Below, one piece after another: positions 5,241 through 13,208 of a stretch of 25,064 bases of DNA (position 1 is its first letter; each line of letters opens with the position of its first letter). The notes beneath the pieces are model-generated. The model was not told where the DNA came from, did no database searches, and saw only the letters and a program-made list of their open reading frames with translations. Origin of the DNA: a virus; IMG/VR virus record IMGVR_UViG_3300027906_001473, positions 1 through 25,064 of that record. One strand, given 5' to 3'. A program made the translations under genes and the position numbers.

Positions 5241-5528
5241 ATGAACGCAAATCAATGGCTCAATTTACTAGAAACTGTAGGCATACCAGCAGCTTTTGCA
5301 GTAGCTTGTGGTTATATGGTATGGAAACTATTTCAACATTTAATAGCAGATGTACATAAAAAATTAGATGTTCAACATGGGATGATAGTTGCATTGATAG
5401 ATAGAATAAGACAGATGGATAATGACATGATAAGAATAGACTCTATGGTACGAACCGCAATGGGAGTAACTATAGATGTTGATAGATTAGCGAGAGCAGA
5501 CGGTAAAAAAGACCAAAGAAAAGATTAA
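5241..5528 (+). CDS. Small membrane protein, holin-like (one TM plus helical tail)
   Basis: A 95-aa protein with one transmembrane segment at about residues 12-32 and a charged, helical cytoplasmic tail (residues 38-80) with spaced Leu/Ile/Met. The form is like BhlA/UviB-type holin-like proteins, but no diagnostic motif is present. The ATG follows the previous stop with no gap, preceded by AAAAGGAAA as ribosome binding site. It lies between the 3-TM holin candidate and csgF. It could be a holin, an antiholin/pinholin partner, or an accessory membrane protein. Confidence 0.5.
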   Translation: MNANQWLNLLETVGIPAAFAVACGYMVWKLFQHLIADVHKKLDVQHGMIVALIDRIRQMDNDMIRIDSMVRTAMGVTIDVDRLARADGKKDQRKD

Positions 5529-5529
5529 T

Positions 5530-6024
5530 ATGAAATTAGTACCCACATTTAAAAGTGATAAGACTGTAAGAAACTGTAAGTTTTGTATGTTCTTTTGGTC
5601 TATGTTAATTATGTTTTGGTCTGTTGATAGTATGACAGATGAAGTAGTTTTTAAATTTAAAAGTCCTAGCTTTAATGGACAAGGAACTTCAAGCCATTAT
5701 CTTACAATTCAGAACCAAGAGTTCAATCGTAAAGAAGCTCTTAAAGCAGAGATAAAAGCTCTACAAGATGAGATAGAAAGAGACAAAGAGAATACAACAC
5801 TTGCAAGATTTATAAGGAACCTAGAGTCAAGAATCTATGCACAATTATCAAGACAATTAGTAGAGAACTTGTTTGGAGAAATGCCTTCAGATAGTGGCAT
5901 ACTAGAATTAGAAGGCAATACTATTGAATATAGTGTTGTCGATGGAATAATAACTTTAATCATAACGGATTCAGATGGGAATAGCACCACGATTTCTTTG
6001 CCTATTGGCACCTTTACTTTTTAG
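5530..6024 (+). CDS. csgF: CsgF-like curli pore accessory protein
   Basis: In Escherichia coli CsgF threads its N-terminus into the CsgG pore, exposes its C-terminus at the cell surface and couples secretion to fibre nucleation. Here residues 39-50 read VVFKFKSPSFNG, matching the CsgF signature FxFxNPxFGG that binds inside CsgG. Residues 91-118 (LARFIRNLESRI then LSRQLVENLF) match the CsgF helix. The C-terminal strands (IEYSVVDGIITLIITD then STTISL) match its beta region. A hydrophobic N-terminal segment (residues 20-32) is a likely signal peptide, though the cleavage site is unclear and translation could start at Met20 (base 5587). A charged helix at 66-88 is longer than in the E. coli protein. 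The last 50 bases overlap csgG. Direct csgG adjacency makes the call strong. Confidence 0.85.
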   Translation: MKLVPTFKSDKTVRNCKFCMFFWSMLIMFWSVDSMTDEVVFKFKSPSFNGQGTSSHYLTIQNQEFNRKEALKAEIKALQDEIERDKENTTLARFIRNLESRIYAQLSRQLVENLFGEMPSDSGILELEGNTIEYSVVDGIITLIITDSDGNSTTISLPIGTFTF

Positions 6025-6835
6025 CAGTTGTGCAGTTTTAAATAGTAACTCAGATTTAGTTTTAACTAAACATATAGAGCCTACAACAACAACAGACTTA
6101 CAATCACAAAAGTTAAAGAACTTACCTCCTGCTAAAAATAAACCTACTATAGCTATATATCCTAATAGCTTTAAAGATTTAACAGGCCAAAGGAAAAGTA
6201 ATAGTACCTTTGCTTTATTTAGTACAGCAGTTACACAAGCACCTGAAGCTTTTTTAATTAGGGCTTTTAAACATACTTCGAATGGGAAGTTCTTTAGAGT
6301 TGTAGAAAGAGTAGGACTAGATGATTTAACAAAAGAAAGACAGCTTATCAGAAGTACTCGTAAAGAGTTTGCAGATGATAAAAAGATGGAGCCTTTGCTT
6401 TTTGCAGGGCTACTAGTCCAGGGAGGAGTAATTAGCTATGAAGCTAATCTTGAATCTGGAGGAGCTGGAGCTAGATACTTAGGAATAGGTAGTAGCAAAC
6501 AGTATAGAGAAGATACAGTTACCATATCATTAAGATTAGTTTCTGTGTCTACTGGAGAAGTGTTGATGGAAACTTTGGTGTCTAAAAGTTTATTATCAAC
6601 ATCAATTTCTCAGGATGTGTTTAGATTTATTGAGACTGGTACTGAACTGGTAGAGATAGAAGGAGGCATTGCTGAGAACGAGAGTGTTTCTATAGCATTA
6701 CAAAAAGCTATAGAGACTGGAGTATTAAATATCATAAATATAGGAATAGAAAGGGGCTATTGGGAATATGAAAACATTGAAATTAACAAGCCTGATTGTG
6801 CTGATGTTGAGTGCATCATTAGTATACGGGGCTGA
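5975..6835 (+). CDS. csgG: CsgG-like outer-membrane curli secretion channel (lipoprotein)
   Basis: CsgG is a nonameric outer-membrane lipoprotein pore that exports curli subunits. The 286-aa length is close to E. coli CsgG (277). A lipoprotein signal ends LLFSSC with lipid-anchor Cys19. Recognisable blocks are LFSTAVTQAP (81-90), VVERVGLDDLTKERQLIR (109-126), SGGAGARYLGIG (161-172), SLRLVSVSTGEVL (185-197), DVFRFI (214-219) and the helix ending AIETGVLNIINIGIERGYW (245-263). The pore-lining eyelet differs: aligned on LFSTAV, Phe56 of mature E. coli CsgG is kept (Phe82 here), but Asn55 becomes Leu81 and Tyr51 aligns with Ser77, with Phe79 nearby. The signal peptide is encoded inside the 3' end of csgF (50-nt overlap), and the 3' end overlaps the curlin gene by 68 nt. 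Confidence 0.93.
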   Translation: MGIAPRFLCLLAPLLFSSCAVLNSNSDLVLTKHIEPTTTTDLQSQKLKNLPPAKNKPTIAIYPNSFKDLTGQRKSNSTFALFSTAVTQAPEAFLIRAFKHTSNGKFFRVVERVGLDDLTKERQLIRSTRKEFADDKKMEPLLFAGLLVQGGVISYEANLESGGAGARYLGIGSSKQYREDTVTISLRLVSVSTGEVLMETLVSKSLLSTSISQDVFRFIETGTELVEIEGGIAENESVSIALQKAIETGVLNIINIGIERGYWEYENIEINKPDCADVECIISIRG

Positions 6836-7487
6836 TAACGAAATTTATATTGAACAAAGTGGAGATACTGCTAATCTTGATTTAGAACAATTAGGTTCTG
6901 CAAATATTATTGGCGGCCTACAATCTAGTGCCGGGTCCATGACCCCGTTAGATTTAGATGGCAGCACAATGACTTTGGACATCAATCAGATTGGAAGTAC
7001 CAATAAATTCTTGGGAGATATTTTAGCTGATAACTTTACAGGGTTCTTTGAGTTTGACGGGAATAGTAATAACTTTACTATTCAAGTAGACCCAACAGAT
7101 ACTTACGGAGCTAATGGCTCAGATGTAAATGTAGATGTAACTGGAAGTACTAATGATTTCACACTTGATTTAGGTACAACCTCTATGGCAAGTAATACAG
7201 ACTTAGACTGGATTATCAATGGAGATGATAACGATATTGATTTTGATATCAATTATGATGGTGGCACAAGCTACATGGATATTGATGGAGATTCAAATAC
7301 AGTTGATTTTGTAGGCTCAGGCTATGCAGGAGGTTACTTCTACCTTGACCAAACAGGTGATAGTAGAACATTTAACATACAACAACTAAGTACACTTGAT
7401 AATGATTGGCTTAAAATACTTTCTACTGGCGACAATGGTACTGTCTGCGTCATTCAAAATGATGGCGGAACCTCAGTCGGTTGCTAG
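6768..7487 (+). CDS. Secreted curlin-repeat (CsgA/CsgB-like) amyloid subunit
   Basis: A 239-aa protein with a clear Sec signal peptide (residues 1 to about 21, ending SLVYGA) and about eight degenerate curlin-type strand-turn-strand units, near residues 26-43, 68-83, 93-107, 119-135, 147-161, 168-182, 190-207 and 215-231. The unit resembles x-I-x-Q-x-G-x-x-N-x-x-x-I-x-Q; the gatekeeper Gln is kept best in units 1, 2 and 7 (YIEQSGDTANLDLEQ, DINQIGSTN, YLDQTGDS) and is often Asp elsewhere. The protein is very acidic. Two cysteines, 227 and 239, close the sequence. The csgFG genes just upstream suggest it is their cargo. The signal peptide lies in the csgG 3' end; AAAGGGG lies about 12 nt upstream of the ATG. 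A different beta-solenoid surface protein is the main alternative. Confidence 0.8.
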   Translation: MKTLKLTSLIVLMLSASLVYGADNEIYIEQSGDTANLDLEQLGSANIIGGLQSSAGSMTPLDLDGSTMTLDINQIGSTNKFLGDILADNFTGFFEFDGNSNNFTIQVDPTDTYGANGSDVNVDVTGSTNDFTLDLGTTSMASNTDLDWIINGDDNDIDFDINYDGGTSYMDIDGDSNTVDFVGSGYAGGYFYLDQTGDSRTFNIQQLSTLDNDWLKILSTGDNGTVCVIQNDGGTSVGC

Positions 7488-8511
7488 TGTAGGAAATATA
7501 ACAGAACTTAACGGTAGCGGAAGAGTCGTAAGGGATAAAACCTTTGACGCTTCTCTATCATTTAATATAAATAGTTTTGATAATGTCCAGACTTCTAATG
7601 GGAGACTGGGCATTACCTTCTTGGATGATAGTCAAGTTAGATTGACTGAACATTCACAATTAATAATAGATGAATTTATCTATGACCCTGACCCATCTAA
7701 ATCTAAGATGGCTCTACAGTTTGCTAGTGGAACTGCAAGGTTTATTACTGGCAAGCTATCAACAATAAACAAAGAAAACATCTTCATAAAGACTCCTTCT
7801 GCAACAGTTGGAATTAGAGGAACAGACTTTACTGTAACGGTAGATGAACTGGGCCGAAGTTTAATTATATTATTACCTGATGATGATGGATTACCTAGTG
7901 GCGAAATAATTGTTTCTACTGCTATGGGACAGGTTGTTTTAAATAAACCTTACCAAGCTACAACAGTTTCCGTATTTGAATCTGAGCCTACTAAACCAGT
8001 TATCCTTGACTTAACACTTGAGTTAATTGATAACATGTTAATCGTAAATCCACCAAAGGAAAGTATAAGTGAACAAGGAGAAGATGGAAACAATAATACT
8101 AATAGCATTCTGGATGTTGACCTTCTGGAGTTCGATGATTTAGAAGTAGATTATCTTGCCGAAGATGAGTTAGAGTTTACAGAATTAGATATTAATTATC
8201 TTGATGTAAATTTTTTGGAAGACTTGTTAGATATAATAGAAGATATTAATGAGTTAGAACAAACAGAAACTATTTTAAATACTAGCTTAGACTTAAAAGG
8301 TACTCAGCTAGGGTATGACTCTTCGACTCAAATAAATACTTTTGTTACAGATAATTTTATAACTTTCTATAAAACTCTAGAAGATACTATAAGATTAGAA
8401 CTAGATAAATCAAATGCTTACACCGTCATTATGATACAAAATGGTAAGAGTACGCAGATTATAGTTAATGGTGGTGGTAACTCTACTATCAAAATTACAC
8501 AAGGAAACTAA
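7402..8511 (+). CDS. Secreted FecR-domain protein with acidic C-terminal region
   Basis: A signal peptide (MIGLKYFLLATMVLSAS) leads into a FecR-type domain. Hallmarks are VASVGNITELNGSG, TSNGRLGITFLDDSQVRL, the IDEFIYDPDPSKSKMALQFASGTARFITG block and IKTPSATVGIRGTDF. Such exported FecR proteins commonly sit beside CHASE2-adenylate cyclase genes, which supports a pair with the next gene. After about residue 225 there is a Leu/Asp/Glu-rich acidic stretch, then a beta-type end (VIMIQNGKSTQIIVNGGGN, then TIKITQGN) resembling curlin units. The ATG at 7402 is preferred; an in-frame TTG at 7396 would add two residues. Either way the signal peptide lies within the last ~86-92 bases of the curlin gene. 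A periplasmic or surface ligand/partner-sensing role is inferred; it is not the full transmembrane FecR anti-sigma factor. Confidence 0.85.
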   Translation: MIGLKYFLLATMVLSASFKMMAEPQSVASVGNITELNGSGRVVRDKTFDASLSFNINSFDNVQTSNGRLGITFLDDSQVRLTEHSQLIIDEFIYDPDPSKSKMALQFASGTARFITGKLSTINKENIFIKTPSATVGIRGTDFTVTVDELGRSLIILLPDDDGLPSGEIIVSTAMGQVVLNKPYQATTVSVFESEPTKPVILDLTLELIDNMLIVNPPKESISEQGEDGNNNTNSILDVDLLEFDDLEVDYLAEDELEFTELDINYLDVNFLEDLLDIIEDINELEQTETILNTSLDLKGTQLGYDSSTQINTFVTDNFITFYKTLEDTIRLELDKSNAYTVIMIQNGKSTQIIVNGGGNSTIKITQGN

Positions 8512-8512
8512 G

Positions 8513-10315
8513 ATGAGATGGAATGCTTTATTAATAGGTCTATTATCTATACCATTATTATTTAATGCAGTTCCTTTAGAGATACTACGACTTAAAACTT
8601 TTGATAACTTTATAGAAACTCCTGAACCTACAGGATATTTTTCTATTCTAAATATAGATGAAGACTTTATTAATGAACAAGGAGGCTATCCTTTACCTCG
8701 TTCCGTACTTGGTGACATACACCAGGAACTACTAAGTAAAGGAGCATTAGGTGTTGGATGGGTTATGTTATTTCCTCACCCAGATAGAATGAAAGGAGAT
8801 GAGGAGTTTAGTTATTCTTTATCTTTAAGTCCTAGTGTCATAGCTATGCCTGAAGTAGATAATGGTTTATATCCTAAGACACATGGAACAGTTATTAAAG
8901 GACCATTAGTAGAGATAAACAAAGCTCCGGGCTTTCTTGAAAATATTGACATACTAAAGAAGTCTGCAAATCAAGGAGCTATATCTGCACCAGTTGAGGT
9001 TGATAATTTGGTAAGACAAATACCTCTATTGCAACAGACACCTGATGGATGGGTAGCTTCTTTTGGTACTGAAGTTTTAAAGATACTTGGTGGAGGAAAT
9101 ACTTATCAAATTATTACTAATGAAAGTGGGATAGAGATGATAAGAGTTAGAGGATTAGAACCTATACCTACAGATAGAGTAGGAAGGAAGTGGATATCCT
9201 GGGTTGATACACCACAAACAAACTTGAAAGAAATGGATGTTGCTAATAAGTTTGTATTCGTAGGCTTCACAGCAAAAGGAATATCACCTCAGTTGGCTAC
9301 ACCAGTAGGATTATTAGAGCCTCATAAAATTCAGGCCGCATTAGCTGAGAGTATATTATTACCTACTCCAGTTATTCCTGATTACAGATTACTAGCAGAA
9401 TTAACTTTACTATTAGTATCTACATTTCTTATTGGTTTTATTATAAGAGTTTCTGGAATTACGATAGGAGTAATAGGAGCAGGCTTTCTATTATCAGGCG
9501 TTGGTTATGGTGGGTATTATTTAATACAGAATAATTTATTAATAGATGTTACATGGAGTCTAATAAGTATGACACTTTTAGGTACTCAGCAATTCTATTT
9601 AAACTTTAGAAAACAATTCAAGCTTAGACAACAAATTAAAAAACAATTTGAAACATACCTAGACCCAAGACAAGTTGAAGCATTACAAAAAAATCCTGGA
9701 CTACTGAAGCTTGGAGGTGAGAGAAAAGAATTATCATTCCTCTTTACAGATATCATGGGCTTTACTCCAGTCTCAGAAGTCTTTAAAAATAATGATGACC
9801 CAGAAGGATTAGTAGAATTAATTAATACTTATCTTAATACAATGACAAATATTATATTAGCTAATGGAGGAACCATAGATAAATATATGGGTGATTGTAT
9901 CATGGCTTTTTGGAATGCTCCTATTGATTGTAAGAACCATGCAGAACTGGCAATTAAATCTGCAATAGAAATAGAAGCAGCTACGATAGAATTAAATAAA
10001 CAATTTAAAGAACAAGGATTAAAACTACCTCCAATTAATGTAGGGACTGGAGTTAATTCAGGAACTTGTATTGTTGGGAATATGGGTAGTGAAACTAGGT
10101 TTGATTATTCTGTGGTAGGGGATGCGGTGAACTTGGCCGCTAGATTAGAAGCTACGGCTGGTAGAAATGATTACAAACAATGGAAAGTAATTATATCTGA
10201 GTACACAAAAGAGTTGGCCGGGGATTGTTTTGAGTATGAAAAGATAGATAGCATACTTGTTAAGGGTAAATCAGAACCAATTACTATATATTTTCCTAAA
10301 ATGCAGGTGAATTAG
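8513..10315 (+). CDS. CHASE2-domain class III adenylate cyclase
   Basis: Makes cAMP from ATP under control of an extracytoplasmic sensor. Residues 4-22 form TM1. Residues ~25-285 are a CHASE2 domain (SILNIDEDFIN, then GYPLPRSVLGDIHQELLSKGALGVGW). Three TM helices follow (about 292-312, 314-335, 343-360). The cytoplasmic cyclase domain spans ~405-595. Catalytic residues appear complete: metal Asp413 (FTDIMGFT) and Asp461 (KYMGD), adenine-selecting Lys457 and Asp531, and transition-state Asn540 and Arg544 (GDAVNLAARLE). This predicts an active adenylate rather than guanylate cyclase. Start ATG 8513 has AAGGAAAC eight bases upstream, two bases after the fecR stop; an ATG at 8468 would add 15 poor residues. 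Last plus-strand gene before the convergent junction. Confidence 0.92.
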   Translation: MRWNALLIGLLSIPLLFNAVPLEILRLKTFDNFIETPEPTGYFSILNIDEDFINEQGGYPLPRSVLGDIHQELLSKGALGVGWVMLFPHPDRMKGDEEFSYSLSLSPSVIAMPEVDNGLYPKTHGTVIKGPLVEINKAPGFLENIDILKKSANQGAISAPVEVDNLVRQIPLLQQTPDGWVASFGTEVLKILGGGNTYQIITNESGIEMIRVRGLEPIPTDRVGRKWISWVDTPQTNLKEMDVANKFVFVGFTAKGISPQLATPVGLLEPHKIQAALAESILLPTPVIPDYRLLAELTLLLVSTFLIGFIIRVSGITIGVIGAGFLLSGVGYGGYYLIQNNLLIDVTWSLISMTLLGTQQFYLNFRKQFKLRQQIKKQFETYLDPRQVEALQKNPGLLKLGGERKELSFLFTDIMGFTPVSEVFKNNDDPEGLVELINTYLNTMTNIILANGGTIDKYMGDCIMAFWNAPIDCKNHAELAIKSAIEIEAATIELNKQFKEQGLKLPPINVGTGVNSGTCIVGNMGSETRFDYSVVGDAVNLAARLEATAGRNDYKQWKVIISEYTKELAGDCFEYEKIDSILVKGKSEPITIYFPKMQVN

Positions 10316-10406
10316 TCTAAATCCTATTAGACGAACACAGAAGCCCTTGGTTAAACTTTAATACTTTCCGAGGCCTAGGTATTACTTAGGTCCTTTCTGT
10401 TTAACC
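10315..10406. terminator. Nested hairpins in the convergent gap, likely terminator region
   Basis: Three inverted repeats: GTCTAA/TTAGAC (10315-10320 with 10327-10332, overlapping the cyclase stop codon); an outer GGTTAAAC/GTTTAACC (10349-10356 with 10399-10406, perfect 8 bp); and inside it CCTAGGT/ACTTAGG (10374-10380 with 10384-10390, one G-U, 3-nt loop) followed on the plus strand by TCCTTTCTGTTT. A T5 run at 10427-10431 follows downstream behind a weak 4-bp stem. Position between converging operons suggests transcription termination; the U-tracts are imperfect, so efficiency is uncertain. Confidence 0.55.
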
Positions 10407-10432: not shown

Positions 10433-10654
10433 TTATAAAGCTTGAATTTCTTTCTGTAAATACAAATGTAGTGGTTTTAACTTAGCATCTGCTCTTTCGA
10501 TAAGAGTTCTTATAATTTTCTTATCATGTTCCGCAAAAATACTATCAACTTTATCTGTTGGGAAGGCTGATATTTCTGAAACTATCTTTCCTTCTGGTGT
10601 TAGGAGGACTTTAAAACTAATTAAGTTCCCTTCTTCTCTTGTTCTCTTCTTCAT
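10433..10654 (-). CDS. Small hypothetical phage protein
   Basis: A 73-aa protein starting MKKRTREEG with a basic N-terminus, a short beta-type centre (FKVLLTPEGKIVSEI) and a charged C-terminal helix. No signal peptide, TM segment or known motif. It is the last gene of the minus-strand arm and overlaps the cytidylyltransferase gene by 4 nt (ATGA), so it is probably co-translated with it. Function unknown. Confidence 0.6.
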   Translation of the reverse strand: MKKRTREEGNLISFKVLLTPEGKIVSEISAFPTDKVDSIFAEHDKKIIRTLIERADAKLKPLHLYLQKEIQAL

Positions 10655-11052
10655 TTTACTTTATTCCTTAATTCAGTAGTGCTGAAATTGTGTTTTCTTT
10701 TATTATAATAAACAGAAATACCTCTAACCTTACAAATTTCTTTTCCAGTAAACCATTTATCTTTATACTCTTCTCCTATTATCCTTACATCAATAGGTAA
10801 AGTATTTAATATATCTTCTAATTCTTTTTCTGTATTGTAGACAATAGTATCATCTACCCATTTAACCGCTTTAACTTGTAGCTGTCTTTCAACTATACTT
10901 TGAACAGGTTTATTTTTATTAGGCCTGTCTACTGAGGGGTCAGTCTGTATCGCCACAAGTAAATGCTCACATTCTTGCTTAGCTTCTTCGAACATAACCA
11001 CATGTCCTGCATGTAGTAAATCAAAAGCTCCACAAGTTATCCCTCTTATCAA
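10651..11052 (-). CDS. Cytidylyltransferase-like nucleotidyltransferase (TagD/GCT type)
   Basis: A 133-aa protein of the HxGH nucleotidyltransferase family, close in length to glycerol-3-phosphate cytidylyltransferase (about 130 aa). It has CGAFDLLHAGHV with His14 and His17 for CTP phosphates, an RPNKNKPVQSIVERQ segment, IIGEEYKDK, and a C-terminal STTELR motif (residues 124-129). These enzymes activate a phosphorylated alcohol or sugar as a CDP (or ADP) conjugate. The substrate cannot be read from sequence. The start is a TTG directly after the nrdB stop, with GAGGAG about six bases before it; no ATG precedes the catalytic motif. It may feed envelope or glycan modification together with the FkbM and 2OG enzymes upstream in the operon. 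Confidence 0.85.
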   Translation of the reverse strand: MIRGITCGAFDLLHAGHVVMFEEAKQECEHLLVAIQTDPSVDRPNKNKPVQSIVERQLQVKAVKWVDDTIVYNTEKELEDILNTLPIDVRIIGEEYKDKWFTGKEICKVRGISVYYNKRKHNFSTTELRNKVK

Positions 11053-12048: not shown

Positions 12049-12642
12049 CTATCTAAAATGTTTTCCTTCTACCCATGCAACTAAAGTTCTTCTAGTTCCT
12101 CTCACTACAGGTGTTACCCTATGTAATAAAAAGGAAGGGAATATTAAAATACTACCTTTTTTTCTTAACGAATCCCTGTCACAAGAATTTCCTGTGCCGT
12201 CATTCAATTCAAAATCTCCTCCTTCATACTCACTACCATCTGAAAGTTGAACAGTTATGCTTAACTTTCTATGATAAGCATTAGGAGTTTCAATGAAGGT
12301 ATCAATATGCCAATCATAATGGTCCCCTCCTCCTTCATAAATTGTGTATTGAACACTATCTAAATAATTTACATCGAATGCAAAGTTACTTCTATTGGCC
12401 GCATTAATAAAATTCCAAAGCTTTCCCTGGACAAATCCCCATAAATCTCTATGCTCATAGGAAGCTGAATCTATAAAACCTGTTTTACTTTTCCTTATAC
12501 TGTTTTCAACTATACCTGAAGAACTATTTGTTGTCTCTCCTACAATAGCTGACTTTATATCTAGTAATCTTTCCGCCTCATCTGCTATGAAATCACATTC
12601 TTGACTAGCTAAGCCACTTTCAAAAATCATATGACTCTTCAT
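12049..12642 (-). CDS. 2-oxoglutarate/Fe(II)-dependent oxygenase (prolyl-4-hydroxylase-like)
   Basis: A 197-aa dioxygenase with the iron triad His112, Asp114 (YDWHIDTF) and His174 (FPSFLLHRV), and an Arg in RGTRRTLVAW for the 2-oxoglutarate carboxylate. Order and spacing (YEGGGDHYDWHID, then GGDFEL, then GSILIFPS) match P4H/PKHD-type oxygenases common in marine phages. The substrate is unknown; protein side chains, nucleobases or small molecules are all possible. It overlaps the FkbM methyltransferase gene by one base (TAATG) and sits inside the nrdA-nrdB interval. Confidence 0.88.
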   Translation of the reverse strand: MKSHMIFESGLASQECDFIADEAERLLDIKSAIVGETTNSSSGIVENSIRKSKTGFIDSASYEHRDLWGFVQGKLWNFINAANRSNFAFDVNYLDSVQYTIYEGGGDHYDWHIDTFIETPNAYHRKLSITVQLSDGSEYEGGDFELNDGTGNSCDRDSLRKKGSILIFPSFLLHRVTPVVRGTRRTLVAWVEGKHFR

Positions 12643-13208
12643 TATCTAACTCCGTAAATATCATCTCTTTCTGTCCATGTCATATACCCATTACTTTGTA
12701 GTATCTGAACAGCTTTTATATCATCTATATGTTTATGTTCTATCTTTATAAATGTAGGTTTAATTCTCCAGGAATAATCTTCTAATAGATTCATCTCATG
12801 TCCTTCCATATCCATCTTTAAAAAATCTATTTCCTCTATATTGTTTTCCAAGAGAACGGTATCTAATCTTTTACAATTAACTTCTATAACCTCAGACAGA
12901 TACTCTTCCCTACTCCATAATTCATATTCAAAAATCCTACCGCCTTTATGGTTCTCATCTACTATAGAAGACATACCTCTTATAGCTCTATCAGGATAAT
13001 CTTGTTTAGATATTCCTATCTTAATTGTTCCATCATAATCTGAAACAGCGTAATCTAATGTAGTAATGTTTGAATACTCTTTCATAAACTTAACCATACG
13101 CTCATATGCTAAAGGGTTAGGCTCTATCATTAATCCTTTCCATCCTCTATCAGCTAAAGGCTTGCAAGTATCAAAGTCACATGTTCCTATTTCTATAAAT
13201 GTCTTCAT
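12642..13208 (-). CDS. FkbM-family SAM-dependent methyltransferase
   Basis: A 188-aa methyltransferase. The SAM-binding start is IEIGTCDFDTCKPLADRGWKG followed by IEPNP (acidic residue for the ribose). Later blocks are YAVSDYDGTI, CKRLDTVLLEN and DFLKMDMEGHE, the last being the FkbM signature. FkbM enzymes usually O-methylate sugars or secondary metabolites. It is short, lacking N-terminal additions. It overlaps nrdA by 4 nt (ATGA) and the oxygenase gene by 1 nt, so all three are translated from one message. A role in modifying host or virion glycans is possible but unproven. Confidence 0.85.
   Translation of the reverse strand: MKTFIEIGTCDFDTCKPLADRGWKGLMIEPNPLAYERMVKFMKEYSNITTLDYAVSDYDGTIKIGISKQDYPDRAIRGMSSIVDENHKGGRIFEYELWSREEYLSEVIEVNCKRLDTVLLENNIEEIDFLKMDMEGHEMNLLEDYSWRIKPTFIKIEHKHIDDIKAVQILQSNGYMTWTERDDIYGVR

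Follow-up and report, generated by a model that had tools for sequence, protein, structure and literature searches.

The DNA analysed here, referred to as the window, has 25,064 bases; it is an entire IMG/VR record and probably a fragment of a genome. Read from left to right on the + strand, virion genes, the last encoding an internal protein of 1,252 aa that includes a phage lysozyme domain, are followed by a gene for a 146-aa membrane protein and then by a series of mostly overlapping + strand ORFs that begins with a small gene, p95, and ends with a cyclase gene; replication and nucleotide genes converge on this set from the right side. The original prediction placed csgF, csgG and a curlin-repeat substrate within positions 5530-7487. 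These three overlapping ORFs (5530-6024, 5975-6835 and 6768-7487) are confirmed, as are the virion and replication flanks, but the functional set does not end at 7487: genes for a FecR-domain protein and a cyclase had been overlooked and carry it to 10315. A possible terminator on the + strand (10372-10392, a 9-pair stem followed by a T-rich tail) may separate the curli/cyclase transcript from the converging replication genes, though the 5 terminator-type sites found in the region compare with 2.6 expected by chance. No tRNA or Rfam RNA was found in the window. The DNA polymerase (polA) is 50% identical to that of Pelagibacter phage HTVC115P and close to those of HTVC103P/104P, which would place the phage near the HTVC023P-type podophages and make SAR11 its probable host, an assignment based solely on the 50% match to HTVC115P.

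The csgF product (164 aa; 5530-6024, + strand) matches PF10614 with an E-value of 9.3e-17, bearing out the predicted CsgF signature. Its N-terminal segment, F-x-(S/N)-P-x-F, is conserved, with F43, P46 and F48 invariant in phage and bacterial copies; in E. coli, the N-terminal segment of CsgF inserts into CsgG. The overlapping csgG (286 aa; 5975-6835, + strand) encodes a predicted outer-membrane export pore (PF03783, E = 2.3e-50) with the lipoprotein signal LLFSSC, whose lipobox cysteine is invariant in the CsgG alignment and common to the phage and E. coli proteins. Along its entire length the profile of the CsgG family can be aligned with the solved E. coli CsgG (6e-66), in agreement with the near full-length lipoprotein proposed earlier. 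The locus thus holds a CsgG pore lipoprotein, a CsgF with a CsgG-binding N-terminus and, at family level, a curlin substrate, on which we base its assignment to type VIII (curli) secretion. No match to CsgE (PF10627) was found in 24 records of curli phages, which include fragments. We do not take the CsgE gate as defining for type VIII secretion, since a chromosomal Hyphomonas operon described below also shows no csgE, and CsgE was not essential in experiments cited by PMC7029224. In our own small CsgG tree, which has thin sampling and long branches, podophages are not nested inside myophages; in the tree published in 2022 (PMC9599517) they are. An unannotated record of 1,499 bases named as a Salmonella phage (OR851715.1) also has a csgG match (41% identity), but its label is doubtful and it was set aside.

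The third ORF (6768-7487, + strand) encodes a 239-aa protein with a signal peptide followed by about eight degenerate curlin units. Examined as a single sequence, it falls under the cut-offs of both PF07012 (E = 0.023) and the NCBIfam CsgA model (E = 0.0014), scores no better than its own shuffles against a hand-made HMM of the canonical 24-residue curlin unit, and shows mild enrichment of GxxN (p = 0.035). As these single-sequence tests are weak, the case for a curlin rests on the family profile. PF07012 is matched by 10 of 22 members of the cargo family (best 1e-5), and the family profile retrieves 13 of the 766 ORFs from 15 bacterial curli loci at E <0.01. All 13 carry curlin-type repeats. 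Among them are E. coli CsgB and further CsgA/CsgB-type proteins of enterobacteria, together with curlins from elsewhere in the bacteria, and the Hyphomonas curlin scores best (5e-21). For none of these proteins did any of 300 shuffled versions reach the real score, which rules out composition as the source of the matches. An AlphaFold2 model of the cargo (mean pLDDT 81, pTM 0.76) is beta throughout, with a strand spacing of about 11 residues, as would be expected for curlin half-units. A Foldseek comparison of this model with the PDB gave nothing significant (best E = 0.13), and a sequence search of the PDB with the cargo profile returned chance matches only. Hence, of the repeat-bearing substrate originally proposed, curlin membership appears firm for the family and weak for the single sequence, with profile matches to curlins on one side and no significant structural match on the other. 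The cargo is richer in Asp than classical curlins, and a C-terminal Cys pair is conserved among podophage copies. Phage HTVC008M has a second curlin gene (locus L160, 8552-9874) with matches to both PF07012 (5e-8) and a PA14 domain (3e-6), a combination that hints at a fibre with a carbohydrate-binding tip.

Overlapping the cargo gene is an ORF that opens at TTG 7396, although an ATG at 7402 agrees better with relatives; from the latter (7402-8511, + strand) it encodes a predicted exported periplasmic protein with a FecR domain (PF04773, 3.3e-11). By alignment and model, this protein consists of a signal peptide, the FecR domain directly after it, a disordered acidic middle and a C-terminal curlin-like unit. 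It was rejected as an iron-dependent anti-sigma regulator of the transmembrane FecR type, in which a cytoplasmic N-terminal anti-sigma domain and one span precede the periplasmic FecR domain, given that the protein has no cytoplasmic domain and the FecR domain directly follows the signal peptide. When a profile of the last 38 residues was compared with the 766 bacterial ORFs, the top three were curlin-type proteins (7.5e-4, 0.006 and 0.015), which is suggestive, though not firm, evidence that the FecR protein ends in a curlin-like unit.

The final gene of the set (8468-10315, + strand) encodes a 615-aa protein with a CHASE2 sensor domain (PF05226, 9.8e-24), membrane spans and a class III adenylate cyclase domain (PF00211, 2.7e-19). 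The window copy has all six catalytic residues, D428, K472, D476, D546, N555 and R559, which are largely retained across 78 aligned copies, so that the two metal-binding Asp, the Lys/Asp specificity pair and the transition-state Asn/Arg of class III cyclases are in place, as read from the alignment. We sampled 79 genomes of the family to which a 'Candidatus Pelagibacter' MAG (SAR11) belongs and found that 75 of them had no CRP-type cNMP-binding domain; none was present in the 24 curli phage records either. Class III cyclases scored above cut-off in just 2 of the 79 genomes, in each case on the same contig as its CsgG, and at least one of these contigs is a phage-type module (L414). The published signalling route through CRP and CsgD is unlikely to operate in a SAR11-type host, because 75 of the 79 genomes and all 24 phage records show no cNMP-binding domain, a conclusion that covers CRP-type domains in the case of the receptor and class III enzymes in that of the cyclase.

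At the other end of the set lies p95 (5241-5528, + strand), which encodes a 95-aa protein with one predicted hydrophobic membrane span and is the first gene of the phage curli module. The original prediction regarded it as a holin, and a single span would allow this, but p95 occurs solely alongside csgF/csgG: these genes lie downstream in 74 of the 74 viral p95 loci with enough sequence, which ties p95 to the curli genes and makes holin no more than a possible label. Across 50,697 phage records, p95 together with m98, a second and similar small gene of myophage modules, was found only in 6 records, all bearing csgG (HTVC008M/Melnitz; Pelagibacter and Methylophilales phages). The protein gave no credible Pfam or NCBIfam domain match and had no match in the bacterial curli loci checked. 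The 'HK' gene described at this place in earlier modules (PMC9599517) is, judging by gene position, apparently p95; a histidine kinase was rejected for a 95-aa protein with one span, no domain and no conserved His in the alignment. These observations are best accounted for if p95 serves the phage exporter as its dedicated partner. Modules of phage type bearing p95 were also encountered on short contigs binned into bacterial MAGs (L319, L320, L322, L325, L326 and L414; Maricaulis, Pelagibacter, Flavobacteriaceae and Rhodobacteraceae), where they are a source of false 'bacterial' csgG.

A survey of related viral contigs, which had been suggested as a check on the gene order, found that the order recurs in about 155 distinct loci. 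After de-duplication, p95, the adjacency of CsgF and CsgG and the adjacency of curlin and FecR were all present at 155 of 155 testable csgG loci, and curlin lay directly after CsgG in 154 of the 155; the sampled loci are the best-scoring relatives, and distant variants are under-sampled. A curlin gene was present irrespective of whether loci were seeded with csgG (54 of 54) or with p95 (46 of 46), while a cyclase was found in 91 of 92 sufficiently long loci, on the same strand in 83 and inverted in 8. In these eight (L099, L113, L117, L122 and four more) the cyclase gene joins the nrdB/nrdA strand, and its expression can be uncoupled from that of the curli genes. In several contigs, just as in the window, the set is bordered by the virion gene at one end and by nrdB/nrdA at the other. 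A chimera at 5530 or 10315 was rejected, both junctions recurring in independent contigs. Median dN/dS values of 0.14-0.21 for p95, CsgF, CsgG, curlin (0.15) and FecR indicate purifying selection; the cyclase value of 0.5 was set aside, as 62 of 152 ORFs were short or truncated.

The module is already known, and the window is one more member. Zaragoza-Solas et al. (PMC7029224) described CsgF/CsgG in myophages, as the original prediction had noted for some marine phages, and proposed 'sibling capture'. Wittmers et al. (2022; PMC9599517) reported nine HTVC023P-type podophages with the order 'HK'-CsgF-CsgG-CsgA/B-FecR-(CsgA/B)-cyclase, 'HK' sometimes being two genes, and found the same set in myophages, widely in GOV2.0 and expressed in metatranscriptomes. 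The window shares this order, from the small upstream gene to the cyclase, and, as far as polA shows, belongs to the same phage group; it differs in having no second curlin gene and in that its upstream gene is not a histidine kinase. A phage-borne cargo gene, originally thought new, likewise has precedents in that study and in the HTVC008M and Melnitz records. HTVC008M (NC_020484, gp014-gp019) shares csgF, csgG, a cargo gene labelled 'curlin minor subunit CsgB', a FecR-type protein and the cyclase, but has in addition the curlin with a PA14 domain and two small membrane genes; CsgG and cargo of the window are 44% and 31% identical to its own. For Melnitz, Buchholz et al. (PMC9004378) denied a csgA, whereas the record itself annotates two curlin-repeat proteins, one above the Pfam cut-off.

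Bacterial counterparts exist as well. The marine Hyphomonas sp. TMED17 (L324) has a chromosomal csgF-csgG-curlin-FecR-CHASE2 cyclase operon in the same five-gene order, on a 705 kb contig among ordinary chromosomal genes; it differs from the phage module in its 504-aa curlin, a FecR protein with no curlin-like tail and the absence of p95. A gammaproteobacterial MAG has curlin-csgF-csgG-curlin-curlin-FecR. These operons, with FecR and cyclase in the former and FecR in the latter, run against the statement that both genes lie outside bacterial curli operons (PMC9599517), while three other alphaproteobacterial curli operons (L411-L413) contain neither. Relative to E. coli csgBAC/csgDEFG, the phage module shares the CsgF/CsgG exporter and the curlin family but has no CsgC, CsgD or CsgE, possesses one curlin, and adds FecR and the cyclase.

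Taken as a whole, we consider it likely that the phage equips the infected cell with a type VIII (curli) exporter, through which the phage's own curlin leaves the cell. Since the curli genes share a strand with the virion and lysis genes and come after them, they would be expressed late in infection. Sec would then carry curlin to the periplasm, CsgG/CsgF would export it without CsgE, and it would polymerise at the cell surface. The FecR protein could dock on or nucleate the fibre via its C-terminal curlin-like unit and report the export state to the CHASE2 domain, leading to cyclic-nucleotide synthesis. As a guess, the fibre coat might alter the cell surface ahead of lysis, so that siblings or progeny stay close or competitors are kept out. 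The HMM matches, the shuffle-controlled curlin homology, the alignment of CsgG with its solved counterpart, the conserved CsgG-binding part of CsgF, the recurring gene order with its strict csgG-curlin linkage, the purifying selection on the cargo, the Hyphomonas operon and the published module with its metatranscriptomic expression support export, which is likely on this evidence, and a surface fibre appears probable. Against this explanation we count the absence of CsgE from the 24 phage records, the absence of a solved-fold match, the Asp-rich cargo, a cyclase product without a known reader in the sampled SAR11-family genomes, and the lack of clumping in Melnitz infections (cytograms and TEM; PMC9004378). 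The original identification of CsgF, CsgG and cargo holds, and the export of an amyloid-like protein that was proposed with it, as a predicted fibre, is the best reading. A more elaborate form of it, which we regard as a tentative possibility, is a closed loop specific to phages, wherein p95/m98 serves the exporter, FecR acts as cap, anchor or sensor of the fibre, and the CHASE2 cyclase signals by a non-CRP route; with a host that has no CRP-type receptor, the cyclic-nucleotide signal would have to act by another route.

Other explanations accept the exporter, or part of it, and differ in what it does. The exported cargo could be a soluble or cell-bound solenoid, such as an adhesin or receptor mask, instead of an amyloid. 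Its degenerate, Asp-rich repeats and the Cys pair of the podophage copies are compatible with this, but the profile homology to CsgB and other curlins makes it unlikely. The remaining two are pore-only roles, which sit poorly with how strictly pore and cargo are coupled. For Melnitz, AlphaFold models and synteny have led to the proposal that CsgG/CsgF act as a pinholin or secretin (PMC9004378), that is, as a pore repurposed for lysis timing with the curlin genes as passengers. While the infections without clumping and the position of the window set after lysozyme and possible holin genes agree with such a role, a curlin gene comes after csgG at all loci tested and evolves under purifying selection, the Melnitz record annotates its own curlin-repeat proteins, CsgF retains the CsgG-binding segment, and the CsgG lipoprotein forms its pore in the outer membrane instead of the inner one; we therefore judge it quite improbable. 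The other proposal, made in PMC7029224 and PMC9599517 and compatible with the missing CsgE plug, is that an ungated CsgG pore lets the infected cell take up nutrients or cofactors. It is very unlikely, as the genes for CsgF, curlin, FecR and cyclase are invariant and find no explanation in it.

The two published models conflict, one with a complete curli system and the other with a lysis-timing pore, and the strict pore-cargo linkage favours export. If the module works as proposed, an amyloid beyond the means of the uninfected host would appear on infected cells of the ocean's most abundant bacteria, with effects on aggregation, re-infection and particle formation. To earlier knowledge our analysis adds the p95 family, the Hyphomonas counterpart, the curlin-like tail of FecR and the CRP-type receptor census of sampled SAR11-family genomes (75/79 without); p95 and a presumed host that seems to have no cyclic-nucleotide receptor are concrete, testable points.

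Several features of the flanking sequence deserve mention. On the virion side, the gene of one protein has, at 375-503, perfect 21-bp repeats (PPASGNQ) followed by a Thr-Pro repeat (TPTPTP), and the gene for the 1,252-aa internal protein contains an exact 36-bp tandem duplication at 2853-2924 (YDGLKLANSMAY twice). The unit is single copy in a close relative (L243), and the duplication may have arisen recently or during assembly of the reads. On the replication side, as judged by eye, a small cytidylyltransferase-like (TagD-type) sequence (10651-11052) adjoins the RNR genes, and a probable 2OG-Fe(II) oxygenase and an FkbM-type methyltransferase (12049-13208) lie between nrdB and nrdA.
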